From Chloroflexota bacterium (lineage in GTDB: Bacteria; Chloroflexota; UBA6077; JACCZL01), in NCBI GenBank assembly GCA_020850535.1, contig JADZEM010000058.1:1-61858 (forward strand): a stretch of DNA of 61,858 nt. The letters are read 5' to 3'. Below are positions 1 to 39,052 of the stretch, piece by piece. The position numbers were made by a program, and so were the translations under genes. Below the pieces are notes generated by a model. It was not told where the DNA came from and made no database searches. It saw only the letters and a list, made by a program, of their open reading frames with translations. Every line of letters starts with the position of its first letter. Position 1 is the first letter of the stretch.

Positions 1-167
1 CCCCGCCTACGATCCTGCAGTCGCTGCGCGACGCTCCAGTCTCACCGGACGACGGCTGTTCCCGGTCTCCGTCGCGCAGCGACGGTGTGACTGTAGGCGG
101 GGGTTTCAACCCCCGACCGCCCGTTCCATGATGCTTCGGGGACACCAATGAACATGCCATCGCCCTG
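1..167 (-). repeat. Nested palindromic element, copy A (cut by window start)
   Basis: This is the truncated, reverse-oriented copy of an element also found at 34350-34457, 38826-39042 and 61648-61858. It holds the inner arms (CCCCGCCTAC near the start, GTAGGCGGGG near 92), the facing TCGCTGCGCGAC and GTCGCGCAGCGAC blocks, the TCGGGGACACCAATG segment, and a terminal repeat ending CATCGCCCTG at 167. No reading frame fits it. It reads as a non-coding, MITE-like mobile repeat. The region from 168 to 256 shows nothing recognisable. Confidence 0.8.
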
Positions 168-9494: not shown

Positions 9495-11609
9495 ATGGAC
9501 AGCCTCAACTCAGCATCGTCCGCGACGACGACGCGTGTGCTTCGCCTGAGCCGGCGGCGCCTGTTGCGTATCGGCATGTTCTCGCTGGCTGCCGTGCCGC
9601 TGGCCGTCGCCTGCAGCCCGAGCCCGCCAGCCACCAAGCCGGCCGAGACCAAGCCGGCGGACGCCAAGCCGGCCGAGAGCAAGCCGGCCGCTGCCGCGCC
9701 GACAACCGCCGCTGCCCCGGCCAAGCCGGCCGAGGCTGCGAAGCCCGCCGAAGCCGCCAAGCCGGCCGAGTCGAAGCCGGCGGCCGCTGCCCCGGCCCCG
9801 GCCAAGCCGACCTCGTTCAAGCAGGCACCGGCGCTCGAGGAGCAGGTCAAGGCCGGCAAGCTGCCGCCCGTCGAGCAGCGCATGCCCGAGAATCCGCTGG
9901 TCGTGACCCCGGTCGAAGAGGTGGGCGCGTACGGCGGCACCTGGCGGCTGGCGTTCAAGGGTGTGGCAGACTTCCACGCCTACCAGCGGAACGTCTACGA
10001 GTCGATGCTGCGCTGGCCGCGCAACCCGAAGGATCCGATCGGCCCCGGCCTCGCCGAGAAGTGGGAGTTCTCCCCGGACGGCAAGCAGCTGACCCTGACG
10101 CTGCGTAAGGGCCTGAAATGGTCGGACGGCCAGCCGTTCACCACCGACGACATCATCTTCTGGTGGGAAGACATCGCGCTGGACGCCAACCTCAGCCCGT
10201 CGCCGCCGCCCGAGTGGGTGGTCAACGGCAAGCCGATGCAGCTGGAGAAGGTCTCCGCTGAGGTGATCCGGCTCAAGTTCGACGGTCCGAACGGCCTGGC
10301 CCTGCGGATGCTGGCGTTCCACGGCAACCAGTGGCCGCTCAACTTCGAGCGGTTCGGGTTCTACGCGCCGAAGCACTACCTGACCCAGTTCCACCCCAAG
10401 CACAACAAGGCGGTGACGGACTACAAGGCGTTCAACGAGAAGGCCGACGACTACAACACCGAGCGCCCTGGGATGACGTCCTGGCGGGTCACGTCCTGGA
10501 AGGCGGGTGACCGCTTCCTGCTGGCGACCCGCAACCCGTACTACTGGAAGGTGGACACCCAGGGCAACCAGCTGCCGTACATCGACGAGCTGCGCGTCGA
10601 CCTCGTGGAGAACGACGAGGCGATCAACCTCAAGGCGATCAACGGCGAGATCGACATGCAGTTCCGGGGCATTCAGATCTCCAAGTTCTCGCTGCTCCAG
10701 GAGAACAAGCAGAAGAACGGCTACCGGGTGTTCCAGTGGCCGGATGCCAGCGGCTCCAAGATCGCGTTCTTCGTCAACCAGACGATTGCCGACGCCGACC
10801 TGAAGCCGCTCTTCCAGAACGCGAAGTTCCGGCAGGGCCTCTCGTACGCGGTCAACCGCAAGCGCATCAACGAGGTGGCGTACTTCGGCCTGGGCAAGGA
10901 GCGCAACGCGATCCTGATCCCGGCGTCGCCGTTCTACGACCCCGCGACCGAGACGCTGCACGCGACCTACGACAAGGACAAGTCGAACGCATTGCTGGAC
11001 GAGGTCGGCCTGAAGAAGGGCGCGGACGGCTTCCGAACCCTTCCCAGCGGCAAGCCGCTCGAGCTGACCATCGAGACGTACCAGACGAGCGGTCCCGAGT
11101 TCGACGCGATGGAGCTGGTCCGCAAGGACTGGGAAGCCGTCGGCCTCAAGATGGCGCTCAAGAGCACCCCGCGCGAGACGTTTGTGCCACGCGGCAACAA
11201 CGGCGAGCTGCAGATCGGCACCTGGGGCACCGACCGGGGCCTGGAGCCGTTCGTCGATCCGGTCTATGTCTTCCCATACGACCAGCGCTCGTGGATGGCT
11301 CCGGCCTGGGGCGTCTACTTCGCGTCGGGCGGCACGAAGGGCGAGAAGCCCGAGGGCGACGTGGCGAAGGCGCACGAGTTGTTCAACCAGTTCCGCTCGA
11401 CGGTCGATCCGGCCAAGCAGGTCGAGATCGGCAAGCAGATCGTGAAGCTGGGCGCGGACAACGTCTGGGTGATCGGGACGGTCGGCGCGGTGCCGTCCAT
11501 CGCCGTCGTCAAGAACAACTTCCGGAACGTGCCCGAGGAGGCCGTCACCGACTGGATCTTCATGAGCCCGGGCAACCTCGACCCGGCCCAGTTCTTCTTC
11601 AAGAAATAG
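9495..11609 (+). CDS. ABC transporter substrate-binding lipoprotein, family 5 (Opp/Dpp type)
   Basis: A 704-aa extracytoplasmic binding protein. The N-terminus has a twin-arginine-type stretch (SRRRLLRIG) and a lipobox ending at Cys40 (LAVAC), so it should be a membrane-anchored lipoprotein. A linker of Lys-Pro-Ala-Glu repeats runs from about residue 45 to 105. The SBP_bac_5 domain (PF00496) follows, with KWEFSPDGKQLTLTLRKGL and SDGQPFTTDDI as its N-lobe markers. Family members bind oligopeptides, but many in thermophiles and Chloroflexota bind oligosaccharides. The neighbouring LacI regulator and sugar-acid dehydratase favour a carbohydrate ligand. GGAGG precedes the ATG. The gene is separated from its permease by an inserted S23-like gene. 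Confidence 0.92.
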   Translation: MDSLNSASSATTTRVLRLSRRRLLRIGMFSLAAVPLAVACSPSPPATKPAETKPADAKPAESKPAAAAPTTAAAPAKPAEAAKPAEAAKPAESKPAAAAPAPAKPTSFKQAPALEEQVKAGKLPPVEQRMPENPLVVTPVEEVGAYGGTWRLAFKGVADFHAYQRNVYESMLRWPRNPKDPIGPGLAEKWEFSPDGKQLTLTLRKGLKWSDGQPFTTDDIIFWWEDIALDANLSPSPPPEWVVNGKPMQLEKVSAEVIRLKFDGPNGLALRMLAFHGNQWPLNFERFGFYAPKHYLTQFHPKHNKAVTDYKAFNEKADDYNTERPGMTSWRVTSWKAGDRFLLATRNPYYWKVDTQGNQLPYIDELRVDLVENDEAINLKAINGEIDMQFRGIQISKFSLLQENKQKNGYRVFQWPDASGSKIAFFVNQTIADADLKPLFQNAKFRQGLSYAVNRKRINEVAYFGLGKERNAILIPASPFYDPATETLHATYDKDKSNALLDEVGLKKGADGFRTLPSGKPLELTIETYQTSGPEFDAMELVRKDWEAVGLKMALKSTPRETFVPRGNNGELQIGTWGTDRGLEPFVDPVYVFPYDQRSWMAPAWGVYFASGGTKGEKPEGDVAKAHELFNQFRSTVDPAKQVEIGKQIVKLGADNVWVIGTVGAVPSIAVVKNNFRNVPEEAVTDWIFMSPGNLDPAQFFFKK
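9630..9812 (+). repeat. In-gene Lys-Pro-Ala-Glu coding repeat
   Basis: Repeated AAGCCGGCCGAG-type dodecamers encode the Lys-Pro-Ala-Glu/Asp/Ala linker of the binding lipoprotein. Such low-complexity spacers between lipobox and ligand domain are common in Chloroflexota binding proteins. They probably keep the domain clear of the envelope. Confidence 0.8.
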
Positions 11610-19108: not shown

Positions 19109-22100
19109 ATGCCCCAGGCCCGTCCGTTGCTGTTTGGCGCTGTCCTGCTCGCGCTCGCGATGCCCGGACACCCGCTTGCACACTTGAGCGGTCTGCCGCT
19201 GAGCGTGCCGAGCCTCTGCCTCGTGCTGCTCGTCGCGGGGTGGATGGTAGCGTTGCCGGGCGTGCCCACACGGGCGGGCCTCTGGTCCGGTGCGCTGGCG
19301 CTGCTGGCTGCGCTGAAGCTGGCGACCTTCTGGCTCGCGCCGACCTACGGCCTGACCGGCGAGTATCTGACCGACGGCAAGCCAGGGACGGTCCGCGTGG
19401 ATCGCGTGCTGGCGCTCCACGGCGACGAGTTCCCGGTCCACTTCTTCAACGACGTTCGGCGCTTCAACTACTACACGCCGGCCGATCCGAAGCGCGACCT
19501 GCTCCCGTTCACCGTGTCCTGGACCGGGCAGATCGTCGTTTCGGCCGGTGGGCCGCAGACGCTGACGCTCCAGTCCAACGGTCTGGCGTCCGTTCAGATC
19601 GACAACGGCCCGCCAGCCTCGATTGCGGAATCCGGCCGCGTGCGCGAGGCGAGCCTGACGTTCGACGTCCCGCCCGGCCTCTACCCGATTGTGGTCAGCT
19701 ACAGCCGCCCCGACGAGATGATGCCGTGGCTGGCGCTCGACACGCCGTCGGCGCTCGTCACGATGGGCACATCGGCGGAGGCGGTCGCTCGGGATACGTG
19801 GCTGCGGCAGGTTGGCACGCTGCTCGACGCTGCACTCGTCGGCCTGGTCGCCCTGGGGTTCCTCGCGCACCTGCGGGTCCGCGGACTCGTCTCACCTTCT
19901 CCGACGCCCAGAGCGGGTTGGGGGGCGAGATTCGCCTCTGGCCCGGGGCGTGAGGTCTTCCCCGCGCGGCTCCTGCTCGCCGCCTACCTCGTGCTGGCCG
20001 GCGGCTGGGAGCTTCTCGGGCATCTGCACCTGTACGGTCGGGCGGTGTTGTTGTCCGGCGGCAACGACTGGCTCGCCTATGAAGGCTTCGCTCGCGATCT
20101 CCTCACCAATGGCCCATTGCTGACCGAGGCCCGGCCGCTCGGGCAGGGGCTGCCGTTCTACTACCAGCCGCTCTACATCTACTGGGTGGCCTTCTCCCAC
20201 CTGATCCTGGGCGAGAGCCTGTTCGCGCCGCTGTTCATGAACGCCGTGCTCGGCGTCTGCGCCGGCCTCGGGCTGTTTGCCCTCACTCGTGAGCTGTTCG
20301 GGCGGGGCGCGGCGGTCGTCGCGCTGCTGCTGTTCGAGGCGTACCGCCAGACCGTCTTCGAGCCGACGGCTGGCCTGTTGCTCTCCGAGAACCTGATCTT
20401 CCCGATCCTGCCAATCTTTCTGCTGCTCCTGGTCCGGCTTGCCCGGTCCGGGCGGTGGCGAGCGGCTGTCGGAGCCGGCTTCGTGCTGGGCCTGGGCGGG
20501 CTGGCCCGCACCACGCCGCTGGCGATCCTGCCCCCGGCCGTGCTGGTACTGCTGCTGGCGTGGCGGCGCTTCGACCTGAGCCGCGTCGGGCCGCGCTGGC
20601 TGGCGTACGGCGGCTCACTCTGTCCGCTGGGCTGGCGAAGGACGGCCGGCCTGCTCGCCGTGTTCGTCGCCGTGGTCATCCTGACGCTCGGCCTCGCCAC
20701 CACCCGCAACTACGTCGTCTCGGGCCGCTTCGTGCCGATCACCAGCAGCGCCGGGGCGAACCTCTGGGAGGCGCATCGCCCGTCCGCGAAGGTCGACCTC
20801 TCGCGGGTGGACAAAGACCCGCTCTACGAGCGGCTGGGCCTGGACCGCACCACCCGCGAGGTGGTCGAGTTCATCCGCCAGGACCCCGTCGGGTACGTCG
20901 GCACGCTGGTCCCGATGTTCCTCTACGCTGTTGGCGTGGTCGGCGCGGTGAGCGGCTCGTGGCAGATCCATCCCGGCCTCTTTGGGCTGTGGGTCGGCTA
21001 CCTGCTGGTGACGCTGCTGCTGCCGCGCGCGCGAGCGCTGCCGACGTGGTTCGTCCACGCCTTCATCTGGAGCCATCTCGCCCAGATGACCGTCTTCTTC
21101 TCGCACCAGTACGGCTTCCGACTGATCCTGCCGATGTACGTGGCGATGGTCCCCATCGCTGCCGTCGGCATCTGGACGGTCGCCGAGCGCCTTGGGCGCC
21201 TGATGCGTCCGCTCGGGGTTCGCCTGCCGTCCGGCGCGCCATTGCCGCCGGCGGCACGTGCGTCCCTGGTGCTGGTAGCAGTTGTGGGTGGCTCGGCCAG
21301 CCTGGGGGCTGGTGAGTGGCGCGGCCACGACGCGGCCCGCGAGGCGTTCTACGGCCTGAACGGCGACGTGGCCATCGCCACCCGGCAGGCGAGTCGGCCG
21401 GAGCTCCTGATGCGGGCGGACGCCGTCTACTTCGTGGGCGACGACAGCCGCTCGACGGACGTGGCCTACCTGACCGGCCTCGCCTACCCGACGCTCCGCT
21501 GGTTCGACGGCGCGCGTGGCTTCGTGCTGCCGCCTCAGGGCCAGGACGCGTTGTACGTCGCCCCGGACCGCGCTGCCGCTGACTTCGCCGTGCGCTGCCT
21601 GGGTGACGGGGCGCTGCTCGGGCGGGAGCGCGACGCGGTGACGGGCGCTGCCCTCAACCTCTACCTCGCCGGAGCCGGCGTCGGGGAGTGCGCTGCGCCG
21701 CGCCAGACGCTCGGCGCGTCGTTCGGCGAGGGGCAGACCGAGAACGCGAAGCTGCTGGGCCTGGATGGTCCGGCCTCCATCGAGCCGGGCCGTACCATGG
21801 ATGTGCTGATCTACTGGGAGGCTGTCAGTCGGCCACGCAACCGCGCCCGGCCGTTCGTGCGGCTGGTGGACAGCCAGGGCCGTCGCTGGGGGCAGGCCGA
21901 GACGGCCGTCTACCCGAGCGCCGCCTGGCGGCCCGGCGAGCGGGCCGTCGGCGTGGCGCGCCTGGAGGTCGATCCGACGCTGCCGCCGGGCGAGTACCGC
22001 CTGGACGGCGGCTTCACGGTGGCGTCAGGACAGGCCAGGACGGTCGAAGATGGCCCGTGGGGCAGCGCCGGCCTGCCACAGGCGCGCGGCGCAACCGTCC

Positions 22101-22954: not shown

Positions 22955-25257
22955 GCCGGCACCTGATGGTCATCAGCCCTGGACGCGCGAGGCTGCTCGT
23001 GGTGGCCGCGGCGCTGGCGTACCTGCTGGTGGACGGCCACCCGGAAAGCTGGCTGAACGGATTGCCCTGGCGACCGCTCAGCCTGGCAGTCGCCGTGGTG
23101 GGTGGCGTGGCAGCCTGGGTGCTCTGGCCCCGGCAGGTCTCTCCCCCTCTCCCGCGCACAGAGACGTCGGCGCAGCCGATGTTCGCGCCGCGCAACGGAG
23201 GGGGCTGGGGGGTGAGGGCCTCCTCGGGCGTGAGGTTACCCTTCATCTTTGCAGCCTCCATCCTGATCCTCACCGCTGCCAGGGGCGTCGTCGGCTGGCA
23301 GGCGCTCCCCTCGGGACTGCCCGGCTGGTACTTCGACAACAGCCGCTTCCAGGGCGACTTCGAGCGCTCGACCGACTTCCTCGGCGAGCCGTGGACCCGC
23401 CGCGAGCGCGAGATCGACTTCGGCGGCGACGAGTTCCCGACCTTCTTCCTCAACGACGTGCAGCGCTTCAACTTCTACGGCTCCGAGGCTGAGCGGCGGA
23501 AGAACCTGCCGTTCTCGGCCCGCTGGGACGGTTTCCTGTACGTGCCGGCCGGCGGCAGTTACCAGCTTTGGCTGACAGCGTCAGGGCCGGCCGCCTTGCG
23601 GATAGGTGACCGGCAAGTCGCAGCCGTGGACGCCGATGGTCGCCAGACCGCCGTCGTGACGCTCGATCTGGCGGCTGGCTCGCACCCCGTCCGCCTGACC
23701 TATGCCCGCCGACCGCCCCGTTCGCCCGATCTCAAGCTGGAGTGGTCGCTCGACGGTCGCCGCCAGCCGATCCGCGTGCCGTACTGGTTTCCCGCCAGCG
23801 TTACGCCAGCCCAGTGGGAGGCGGATCGCACATGGCTGACGGCCTCAAGAGCGCTGGACGCCGCGTTCCTGGTGCTGGTCGGCGTCGGTGCAGTGTTGCT
23901 GTCCGGGCTGGCCGTGCGGCGCTTCGTCCGACTGCCGGCCGCGCGCTGGCCGATCCTTGAGCACGTGCTGCTCGGTGTGTGGCTGCTGGCCGTGTTCTGG
24001 ACGGCGACGGTTCCGCGCCTCGACCGCGTGGACAAGATGGCGCTGCTTGGCGGCGGCCAGGACTGGCTGACCCACGAGACGTTCGCCCGCGACATCCTTA
24101 TCGGCGGGCCGTTGATGACGCTCGGGAAGCCGCTCGGCGAGGGGCGCACCTTCTACGCGCAGCCGTTCTACCCGTACGCCCTGGCCGCCTTCCACGCCCT
24201 GACCGGCGAGGATCAGTTCGGCGCGCTGGCGATCCAGGTGCTCGGCTCGGCGCTGACGGGTGTGCTGCTCTACTTCCTGGCGAAGCGGTTGTTCGGGCAG
24301 TGGGCGGCGCTGGCGACCTTCGTGCTGTACCTGCCGCTCTGGAAGTGGCACCTCGAATGGGTGGCCTACCGGCTGATCTCCGAGGCGATCTACTTCGCGA
24401 TCCTGCCGGCGCTGCTGCTGATACTGGTGCGCCTGCTGGACGAGCGGCGGGCGCGCGACCTGATCCTCGGCGGCGTCCTGCTCGGCCTCGCCATCGTGAC
24501 GCGTGGCCCGACGCTGCTCTACGTGCCGTTTGTCGGCGCGATCCTCTGGTGGGGGCTGCGACGGACAGGCCTGGCGCGGGCCGTCGTGGCGCGGCAACTG
24601 GCTGTCCTGGCCTTCGCGATGGCGCTGGCGATCGGGCTGGTCCCGATCCGCAATCAACTGGTGGCCGGACAGCCGTCGCTGCTGGCGTCGAGCGGCGGCG
24701 TCAACCTCCAGAAACTGCACCGTCCGTCCAACGGCGTCCGCCTGGGGGTGGCGCAGGAGCGCTGGTTCGCGCCGTTCATCGGCGACGCCCCGACCCGTGA
24801 GACGGTCGAATTCCTGCTGCAAGATCCGGCCGGCTACGCCTGGGCCTGCGTGCTGCTGGCGGCCTACACCCTCGGGTACGGCGCGGCCGTCGAGGAGAGC
24901 ACCATCACCGTCTGGCCGGAGCTGATCCTGTTCAACCTGCTGTATCTGCTGGCGATCATCCTCCTGGCGCGTGCCCGCTCGCCAAGGGCGCTGTTGCTGC
25001 ACGCCTTCGTGCTGATCCACTTCGCCACGATGGTCATCTTCGTGCCGTACGACTACGACAACCGGCTGGTGCTGCCGATGTACCTGCCCATCATCGTGTT
25101 CGGCGGCTACTTGTTGGCGACCGTCATTCAGCGAGCCGCCGCGCCGCTGACCGGTCGCATGCGCGCCGACGCGACCGTGGCCGCCTCGGGCCTGACCTTG
25201 GCGACGGATCGGGGGCGTCTGACGGGTGTCGCGACGCCGCGCGAGGACGTGCGGTGA
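22951..25257 (+). CDS. GT39-type membrane glycosyltransferase with PA14-like domain (paralogue 2)
   Basis: A 768-aa paralogue of its neighbour without the C-terminal modules. Short N-terminal membrane segments lead to a PA14-like domain with FFLNDVQRFNFYG and WDGFLYVPAGGSYQLWL, the classic PA14 'fluid from ligand' strand pattern. The core then carries GGGQDWLTHETFARDIL, PLGEGRTFYAQPFYPY and LLIRGP-like positive loops. Acidic residues in the first large loop fit a GT-C catalytic site. The GTG start is coupled to the upstream stop. Function is probably transfer of a lipid-linked sugar to cell-surface polymer; donor and acceptor are unknown. Confidence 0.72.
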   Translation: MSRHLMVISPGRARLLVVAAALAYLLVDGHPESWLNGLPWRPLSLAVAVVGGVAAWVLWPRQVSPPLPRTETSAQPMFAPRNGGGWGVRASSGVRLPFIFAASILILTAARGVVGWQALPSGLPGWYFDNSRFQGDFERSTDFLGEPWTRREREIDFGGDEFPTFFLNDVQRFNFYGSEAERRKNLPFSARWDGFLYVPAGGSYQLWLTASGPAALRIGDRQVAAVDADGRQTAVVTLDLAAGSHPVRLTYARRPPRSPDLKLEWSLDGRRQPIRVPYWFPASVTPAQWEADRTWLTASRALDAAFLVLVGVGAVLLSGLAVRRFVRLPAARWPILEHVLLGVWLLAVFWTATVPRLDRVDKMALLGGGQDWLTHETFARDILIGGPLMTLGKPLGEGRTFYAQPFYPYALAAFHALTGEDQFGALAIQVLGSALTGVLLYFLAKRLFGQWAALATFVLYLPLWKWHLEWVAYRLISEAIYFAILPALLLILVRLLDERRARDLILGGVLLGLAIVTRGPTLLYVPFVGAILWWGLRRTGLARAVVARQLAVLAFAMALAIGLVPIRNQLVAGQPSLLASSGGVNLQKLHRPSNGVRLGVAQERWFAPFIGDAPTRETVEFLLQDPAGYAWACVLLAAYTLGYGAAVEESTITVWPELILFNLLYLLAIILLARARSPRALLLHAFVLIHFATMVIFVPYDYDNRLVLPMYLPIIVFGGYLLATVIQRAAAPLTGRMRADATVAASGLTLATDRGRLTGVATPREDVR

Positions 25258-27220: not shown

Positions 27221-29404
27221 GTGTCGTCTCGGGGCTGGGCGGCGCTGCTGGCGCTGTCCATGGGCAGCTACGTGTTGTTGCCAGGGCATCCGTTGGCGTT
27301 GTCGCGGGGCCTCCCGCTGGACTGGCTCGGCGTGTCGCTGCTGGCGGCGCTGGGCTGCCTGCTGTTCGCGTTCGGGCTGCCCACCGGCGGGCTGGCCCGC
27401 GTGGAGTCGGTGAACCGGCTGCTGCGGACGATCGCGGCGGCGGCGCTCGTGCTGCTGGCGCTGAAGCTGCTGCTCTGGGTGAGCGCACCCGAGTACGGGC
27501 TGGCGGCCTCCTACTACCCGCGCGCCCGTCTCAGCGGCGCTCCCGAGCGCTCCACGCAGCACCCCACGGCCGCCTACACCCGTCTGGAACGCAGCCCGGG
27601 CGCGGAGGGCTTCCAGCTCCACTTCTTCAACGACGTGGAGCGCTTCAACTACTACGAAGCGCCAGATCCCGACCGCCTGTCGCTGCCGTTCGCCGTACGC
27701 TACGACGGCTACCTACACGTCCCGGCTGGCGGTCCGCGCGGCGACGATCAATCGCCCCGCGGTGTGCCGTTCGAACTGTCGGCGCGCGGCGTCGCGATCC
27801 TCTCGGTGGACGGCTCGCCCGCGCTCACGGTCGGCGGGCGGGACGCCATCGCCACGGATCAGGCTGCGCTGACGCTCGCGCCGGGGCCGCACCCGATCCG
27901 CCTGGACTTCCTGCACCAGGGCGGCAACGCACCGTCCTTACGGCTTGCCGCCGATCTGGGACAGGGCATCCACCCGCTGGCCGCGCCGAGCCTGACCGTT
28001 CAGCCGATCCGGCCCGACGTGCTGACGCGCGACCGGGCGGCCGGGTCCATCGCGGTCATTCTGGACGCGCTGACGATCGTCGGGCTGGCGGCCGCTACGC
28101 TGGTGACGGTGGTGCGGCGGGTTCGGCTCGTTCGGTACGAGTCGCACGCGTGGCCTGTCCTGGTCGAGCGTCCGTTGCTGGCGCTGGTCATGCTTGTGGC
28201 GACGGTCTACGCGCTCGTGACCACCGCGCCGCTGGCTGGCCGCGCCACGATCCTCGAAGGCGGCCAGGACTGGCTGACCTACGAGTCGTATGCGCGGGAC
28301 ATCCTGCTCAACGGCCCGCTGATGACCCTTGGCGAGCCGCTCGGCAAGGGGAAGCCGTTCTTCTTCCAGCCGTTCTACCCGTACTACCTGGCGGGGCTGC
28401 ACTGGCTGACCGGCGAGGGGCTGTGGGGACCAATCGTTCTGCAGCTTGCGGGTCTGGGTGTCGCGGCCGTCGTCATCTATGCACTGGGGAAGCGGCTGTT
28501 TGGCGCGGTGGCTGGCGTCGCCGCCCTCGGGCTGTTCCTGGTGCTTGGGTTGACCCAGCTTGACTGGATCGCCCGCAAGCTGCTCTCCGAGAACCTCTAC
28601 TTTGTGGTGCTGCCGGCGGCCCTGCTGATGCTGGCGCGTGCCGTCGACGAGCGCAGTCTGCGGGATCTGGCCTGGGCCGGACTCCTCTTCGGGGTGGCGG
28701 CGATCACGCGCGCGCCGACGCTGCTCTTCATGCCGGGCGCAGCCCTCATCCTGGTGCTGGCGTGGCGGCGGTCCGGCGTGCCGCTGCGCCGTGTCGCCGC
28801 CGGCTTCATGGTGCTGGCGCTCTGCACGACGGTCGTGGCGGCGCTGGTGCCGATCCGCAACCTCATCGTCTCGGGCAAGCCGGCGCTGGTCGCGTCGAAC
28901 GGCGGGGCGACGCTGTTGCTGGCCCACCAGCCCACCGAAAAGGTCCGCCTGAGCGGCATCGACCGCGATCCGCTCTACAACCGCCTCGGGCTGGACCGCG
29001 CGACCCGCGAGGTGGTGGAGTTCGCGCGGCAGGATCCGGTCGGCTACATCTGGACGCTGGTGCCGCTCGGGTTGTACTCGGTCGGCGTCTCCGGGGCGGT
29101 CGAGGACAACCGGGCCGTCGCGCCCGACGTCCTGGGCATCACGGCGCTCTACGTCCTGGCCGTCGTCTGCCTACCGGCTGCGCGGACGCTCCGCACCTGG
29201 CCGCTGCACCTGTTCATCGTGATCCACTTCGGCATCATGATGACGTTCCTGCCGTACGTCTACGGCTACCGGCAGGTCTTGCCGATGCAGGTGCTGATGC
29301 TCGCCTTCGACGGCGCGCTCATCGCCCAGGTCGTCCGGTTCGTCGGGGAGCGCCGGCGCCGACAGGCCACGCACCAGCCAGTGATGGAGCAGCGTCCCGC
29401 CTGA
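27221..29404 (+). CDS. GT39-type membrane glycosyltransferase with PA14-like domain (paralogue 3)
   Basis: A 727-aa third paralogue. HFFNDVERFNYYEAPDPDR, YDGYLHVPAGG and GGQDWLTYESYARDILLNG align closely with the 22951 protein, and the loop PFFFQPFYPYYLAGLH is almost the same. The start is GTG 27221, one base after the preceding stop. The PA14-like domain lies at about residues 90-250 and the membrane core after 280. The last 234 bp run opposite the 3' part of a VanZ gene on the other strand. It probably acts as a lipid-linked sugar transferase. Confidence 0.72.
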   Translation: MSSRGWAALLALSMGSYVLLPGHPLALSRGLPLDWLGVSLLAALGCLLFAFGLPTGGLARVESVNRLLRTIAAAALVLLALKLLLWVSAPEYGLAASYYPRARLSGAPERSTQHPTAAYTRLERSPGAEGFQLHFFNDVERFNYYEAPDPDRLSLPFAVRYDGYLHVPAGGPRGDDQSPRGVPFELSARGVAILSVDGSPALTVGGRDAIATDQAALTLAPGPHPIRLDFLHQGGNAPSLRLAADLGQGIHPLAAPSLTVQPIRPDVLTRDRAAGSIAVILDALTIVGLAAATLVTVVRRVRLVRYESHAWPVLVERPLLALVMLVATVYALVTTAPLAGRATILEGGQDWLTYESYARDILLNGPLMTLGEPLGKGKPFFFQPFYPYYLAGLHWLTGEGLWGPIVLQLAGLGVAAVVIYALGKRLFGAVAGVAALGLFLVLGLTQLDWIARKLLSENLYFVVLPAALLMLARAVDERSLRDLAWAGLLFGVAAITRAPTLLFMPGAALILVLAWRRSGVPLRRVAAGFMVLALCTTVVAALVPIRNLIVSGKPALVASNGGATLLLAHQPTEKVRLSGIDRDPLYNRLGLDRATREVVEFARQDPVGYIWTLVPLGLYSVGVSGAVEDNRAVAPDVLGITALYVLAVVCLPAARTLRTWPLHLFIVIHFGIMMTFLPYVYGYRQVLPMQVLMLAFDGALIAQVVRFVGERRRRQATHQPVMEQRPA

Positions 29405-34349: not shown

Positions 34350-34457
34350 CAGGGCGATTGCATGTCCGTTGGTGTTCCCGAAACGCCGTCAAGCGAGCGG
34401 TCGGGGCTTGAAAGCCCCGACGCCGCTGCACGACGCGCTCAACATGCGATTGCCCTG
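34350..34457 (+). repeat. Nested palindromic element, copy B (internally deleted)
   Basis: A short 108-bp version: terminal repeats CAGGGCGATTGCATGT and ACATGCGATTGCCCTG (two mismatches) and the GTCGGGGCTT / AAGCCCCGAC arms are kept. The central block with GCCTAC, GCAGTCGCTGCGCGAC and its mirror is gone. No clear direct repeat flanks it. The rest of the gap to 34568 shows nothing else. Confidence 0.8.
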
Positions 34458-38815: not shown

Positions 38816-38825
38816 GGCCGAGGCG
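38816..38825 (+). repeat. Left 10-bp flanking direct repeat of copy C
   Basis: GGCCGAGGCG lies directly before the left terminal repeat of the element and is repeated exactly at 39043-39052 directly after its right end. This is what a target-site duplication from transposition looks like. Confidence 0.8.
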
Positions 38826-39042
38826 CAGGACGATTGCATGATCTCTGGTGTTCCCGAAGACGGTGAATCGGGCGGTCAGGGACTGAAGTCCCCGCCTACC
38901 GTCATGCAGTCGCTGCGCGACGAAGGATCGGATCAACCATCGACACGCGAGACAGGAGCGTCGCAGAGCGACAGCATGATGGTAGGCGGGGACTTCAGTC
39001 CCCGACGAGGTCGCAGGACGTGCTTGTCATGCAATCGCCCTG
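38826..39042 (+). mobile_element. Nested palindromic element, copy C (complete, MITE-like)
   Basis: A complete 217-bp copy. Terminal inverted repeats are CAGGACGATTGCATG and CATGCAATCGCCCTG. The inner arms are GGGACTGAAGTCCCCGCC and its mirror ending TCAGTCCCCGAC. Innermost are CAGTCGCTGCGCGAC and a decayed facing copy. The TGGTGTTCCCGAA block near the left end sets orientation. There is no open frame, so any transposase must be supplied in trans. It fills the 380-bp gap between gmd and the next gene. Confidence 0.8.
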
Positions 39043-39052
39043 GGCCGAGGCG
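39043..39052 (+). repeat. Right 10-bp flanking direct repeat of copy C
   Basis: An exact repeat of GGCCGAGGCG from 38816-38825, touching the right terminal repeat of the element. Confidence 0.8.

Follow-up and report, generated by a model that had tools for sequence, protein, structure and literature searches.

The locus analyzed here raises the question of whether a gene-free sequence of 217 bp is a mobile element and, if so, which transposase moved it. It lies at positions 38826-39042 of the window (the whole analyzed stretch of 61,858 nucleotides from a Chloroflexota bacterium, referred to as the host), between a gene for GDP-mannose 4,6-dehydratase and an unassigned gene. The preliminary description had interpreted it as a MITE-like nested palindrome. 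The features of this copy and of the three related copies in the window are as follows.

38816..38825, + strand: left target-site duplication GGCCGAGGCG, 10 bp, read directly
38826..39042, - strand relative to the genome-wide profile: complete 217-bp ISAs1-type MITE
38826..38840, + strand: terminal inverted repeat CAGGACGATTGCATG, 15 bp, the same ends as ISAs1 elements
38875..38899, + strand: left palindromic arm GTCAGGGACTGAAGTCCCCGCCTAC, REP-like, with a GTAG tag facing inward
38909..38922, + strand: inner stem GTCGCTGCGCGACG
38959..38972, + strand: facing inner stem CGTCGCAGAGCGAC
38982..39006, + strand: right palindromic arm GTAGGCGGGGACTTCAGTCCCCGAC
39028..39042, - strand: terminal inverted repeat, reading CATGCAATCGCCCTG on the + strand
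39043..39052, + strand: right target-site duplication GGCCGAGGCG, read directly
34350..34457, + strand: 108-bp short form, a shell without the inner dyad, with flanks differing at 4 of 10 positions
1..167, + strand: copy cut by the contig start
61648..61858, - strand: copy cut by the contig end

The terminal inverted repeats and the exact 10-bp duplication claimed for this copy were borne out. The ends, CAGGACGATTGCATG and CATGCAATCGCCCTG, form an inverted repeat in which one position is mismatched, and the 10-mer GGCCGAGGCG occurs only twice in the whole window, on either side of the 217-bp copy. The interior contains two palindromic arms with GTAG on their inner sides and a facing pair of TCGC..GCGA stems; complementarity between the 48-nt inner arms (38875-38922 and 38959-39006) amounts to 90%. 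The three further copies that had been announced are also real, being the two copies cut by the contig ends and the short form, which is probably an older insertion, given its flank mismatches. Other repeats in the window were tandem 15-bp units of the AAGCCGGCCGAG.. type (9614-9827), probably a repetitive Ala/Pro/Lys-rich linker within a coding region, and three diverged direct repeats (20046-20216, 24041-24211, and 28248-28418) about 4.0-4.2 kb apart. Further matching pieces recur at the same spacing, which suggests three paralogous long genes in tandem.

The host genome (7.65 Mb, 227 contigs) was searched with the element, as had been proposed. The 15-bp end, with up to two mismatches allowed, matched 765 times and the arm motif 780 times (5 and 0 matches, respectively, for the reversed control patterns), and the genome therefore holds about 380-390 elements. 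For the copy census, 2.18 Mb read in long stretches and a set of separate loci were used; they yielded 125 distinct full-length copies, and the element accounted for about 0.9% of the sampled DNA. When the flanks of 61 isolated full-length copies were aligned, 30 showed a perfect 10-bp duplication and 40 a duplication with no more than two mismatches, and the length was exactly 10 bp in every exact case. From base composition, about 0.0002 exact duplications would be expected in this set. About one third of the isolated copies had no recognisable duplication, which counts against the explanation by transposition.

The insertions are mostly intergenic and avoid genes: seven of 49 fell inside coding-like frames, compared with 463 of 600 random points. 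Uninterrupted sites with the target present once were found for the single copy at C143:92248 (at C135:4954-5111), for a dimer at locus L038 (at C28:50532-50658), and for the single copy at locus L045. These empty sites are paralogous, being relatives of a dispersed repeat within the host genome. This second repeat family (GGAAGATCCCTCGACTGCGTTCGCACGCTCACTCCGCTCGGGATGACGG), a landing place for the MITE, has many diverged copies; it was seen in the flanks of L038, at C135:4954-5111 and C28:50532-50658, and at C4:108373-108554.

The element thus shows a length of 217 bp, no coding capacity, 15-bp inverted ends, a fixed 10-bp duplication, and a high copy number. Bacterial MITEs such as Correia/NEMIS, RUP, Nezha, Bcr1, and EFAR are likewise short and non-coding, with inverted ends, target duplications, and many intergenic copies; they differ in having other parent insertion sequences, and the present element also forms direct dimers, which recur with fixed spacers and are mobile as units.

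The preliminary description knew of no named family with this layout, a statement that is superseded by the likeness to ISAs1. In genome G001, a member of the host's family, we found a full-length element of 1256 bp, of the kind that had been called for, with a transposase matching the ISAs1 profile NF033564 (397 bits). Its ends are identical to the MITE consensus at 15 of 15 positions on both sides; it has no flanking duplication. Among 29 genomes of the class, perfect 15-bp ends were found 337 times in the host and twice in G001, where they are those of the ISAs1 element, and in no others.

The host carries ISAs1 transposase remnants at C136 and C187, which adjoin ends matching at 13-14 of 15 positions (CAGGGGGATTGCATA and GATGCAATCGCCCTG at C136, CAGGGCGATTGTATA at C187). 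The C187 copy is truncated, and the one at C136 (C136:21107-27873) has a frameshift and is interrupted by 5.5 kb of inserted DNA in which a group II intron was matched (RF00029, 50 bits); beyond this insert, transposase coding resumes at the next profile position. A perfect duplication was sought at the C136 copy and not found, nor did its outer flanks show any duplication. The host assembly yielded no intact ISAs1 transposase, which, like the missing duplication around the G001 element, speaks against mobilisation by ISAs1. ISAs1 relatives in named genomes across bacteria have CAGGGCRATYGCAT-type ends and an exact 10-bp duplication at 28 of 57 inspected loci, a count that is not unbiased, as the scoring behind it favoured CAG-starting ends and flanking duplications; one such duplication is CAGGGCGATTGCATGA at a Janthinobacterium locus. 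When a DDE partner was sought through PF01609, most matches lacked matching ends, and those near matching ends were ISAs1.

ISAs1 insertion sequences are about 1.2-1.3 kb long and carry a transposase gene, whereas the MITE is 217 or 108 bp long and has none; the likeness lies in the 15-bp ends, which are of the CAGGGCRATYGCAT type, and the 10-bp duplications, and the assignment to the ISAs1 family rests on these two traits. The copies are numerous, most of the isolated ones have 10-bp direct repeats, empty sites exist as paralogues, and a transposase-bearing element has the same ends; the MITE interpretation thus held, and we consider it very likely that the element is a MITE and that an ISAs1-family DDE transposase has mobilised it in trans. 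The movement in trans is deduced from these sequence comparisons.

The element varies in its interior. The 108-bp form is missing the sequence that lies between the GGGG run of one arm and that of the other, and since one copy of this form (C15:27180-27287) has a perfect duplication, the interior seems dispensable for movement. Perfect duplication was observed for one of nine isolated short forms, and their poorer duplications suggest that they are older than the 217-bp form. The polarity may run either way, by gain or by loss of the interior, the difference being the stretch between the two GGGG runs. Copies of about 203 bp have a shorter shell at both ends, as would be expected from recombination between inverted copies. 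At locus L317 (C11:16300-17100), about 90 bp bounded by CCCTTGACGAA.../...TTCGTCAAACG inverted ends split the right arm and may be a third, smaller element nested in the copy; an arm at locus L318 contains similar letters (TTGACGAAATAA).

The description as a nested palindrome was correct for the window copy and does not extend to the typical state, as the arm centres of most genomic copies differ (CTTGAAAG on the left and ACTTCAGT on the right, both self-complementary); the window copy, with its long and almost perfect hairpin, is therefore not representative. The arm centre switches as a self-complementary block among the CTTGAAAG, ACTGAAGT, and GTTGAAAC types. Because the two arms differ in most copies, each acts as a palindrome in its own right. 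The possibility that the interior moves independently was considered and rejected, as the interior and shell distances showed significant correlation (0.23 and 0.47; Mantel p 0.003 and 0.001).

The hairpin could be the reason why the element is kept. On this account, transposition was only its origin, and it is retained mainly as an RNA hairpin serving as a terminator, an mRNA stabiliser, or a processing site. The fold of the window copy is very stable (z = -10.1 as RNA and -9.2 as DNA), equalled by none of 200 shuffles; the interior is somewhat more conserved (0.87) than the shells (0.78 and 0.84); and each arm retains its palindrome through the block changes. The intergenic location of the copies also agrees with such a role, but this bias is expected of any surviving insertion. 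Moreover, pairing between the two arms is imperfect in most copies, and an Rfam search of the window returned no match to any known RNA family. We therefore regard retention for an RNA function as unlikely, and the ISAs1-driven MITE, in which the quasi-palindromic interior would be compact non-coding filler, possibly forming an RNA or DNA hairpin, is preferred.

The arms also invite comparison with REP sequences. They read GTAG followed by a GCGGGG..CCCC palindrome and face each other, so that a GTAG tag beside a short palindrome, in dimers, is present as in GTAG-tagged REP dimers and REPINs. GTAG repeats have been described in Chloroflexi (GTAG-23 of T. roseum), and some REP dimers are set within larger palindromes (Di Nocera et al., 2013, PMC3733652). 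The interior could accordingly be a REP doublet (REPIN/BIME) that owes its movement to a RAYT-type tyrosine transposase, with the outer ends incidental. Two interior-centred copies without clear ends (C13:119274 and C41:87047) would fit this origin; on inspection, they resembled decayed full copies. However, a Y1 transposase (PF01797) had no match in the three genomes of the family that were searched (the host and two other members), and a REP/RAYT origin was rejected on this ground. REP-type movement gives no 10-bp duplication, whereas the MITE copies have one flush to their outer ends, which are of the ISAs1 type. A free REP family was sought in the host and not found; very few arm motifs fall outside the MITE, and the motif is essentially absent from the 28 other genomes of the class. 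As the correlated distances indicate, interior and shells travel together. A REP doublet as the mobile unit is thus highly improbable, and we would note the resemblance of the arms to GTAG REP dimers while claiming no REP membership.

The preferred MITE reading extends to tandem copies. Head-to-tail copies recur with a period of 227, corresponding to 217 + 10. Among 21 distinct full-length pairs, the spacer was ATGCTGCTAC in nine, AGTCACGAAC in three, and a 17-bp sequence in two, and each recurring spacer kept a single orientation with respect to the element. The outer flanks carried a perfect 10-bp duplication, unlike the spacer, in nine pairs, and a duplication with one mismatch in three more; this outer duplication is specific to the locus. 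If a second element had inserted beside a first, the spacer would equal the outer duplication. As the two are unequal, the pairs have apparently transposed as units, with the outer ends of the dimer serving as one transposon. Trimers were found at C112:46484-47046 and at loci L081 and L023. At locus L316 (C20:1-600), ACGAATCAGT and an inverted end copy, CCGGGCCATTGCC, follow the right end in that order, unlike the usual direct dimers.

The outer ends of two direct-order copies also mobilise the whole unit in tandem IS dimers and composite transposons; the difference is that the MITE dimers carry no cargo beyond the 10 bp or 17 bp of spacer that separate two non-coding elements. The spacer is probably the target duplication that arose when the dimer was founded, retained when the dimer moved, and the founding may have been the entry of a second copy into the duplication of the first or slippage across that duplication. 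The two halves within a pair (A and B) are as alike as the A halves across loci, and more alike in the 17-bp class. This speaks against a simple single origin of the dimers, which predicts otherwise unless the copies homogenise each other, and we propose that recombination may homogenise the halves. Tentatively, then, the dimers could form a self-propagating class that was founded repeatedly with new spacers, each freezing the founding duplication, and that spread as units while their halves homogenised; the spacer would be a heritable barcode from which the transposition history of a bacterial genome could be reconstructed. In the papers covered by a literature search, with ISfinder outside its scope, neither a MITE of the ISAs1 family nor mobile dimers of MITEs were described.

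The earlier remark on an assembly breakpoint was right in that 10 of the 28 contig ends examined lie inside copies, and copies break the assembly at both ends of the window, but the repeats and dimers are most implausible as assembly artefacts, as mis-assembly would not create their unique flanks, their sequence divergence, or the 10-bp duplications that match around single copies and whole dimers.

Searches of 399 further genomes sampled from the phylum gave only short and weak matches to the MITE, and the burst is therefore local to the host lineage, to which it would be limited as far as sampled; it is probably also recent. An exceptionally abundant non-autonomous ISAs1 lineage, with about 380 copies, is thereby added, and its repeats account for part of the fragmentation of the draft genome. 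The MITE itself fits the known ISAs1-type kind, and the new aspect is the dimers that move as units. They indicate that two neighbouring elements can be handled by a bacterial transposase as a single unit; with the recurring spacers of the dimers, sequence data alone may suffice to reconstruct the order in which events took place.
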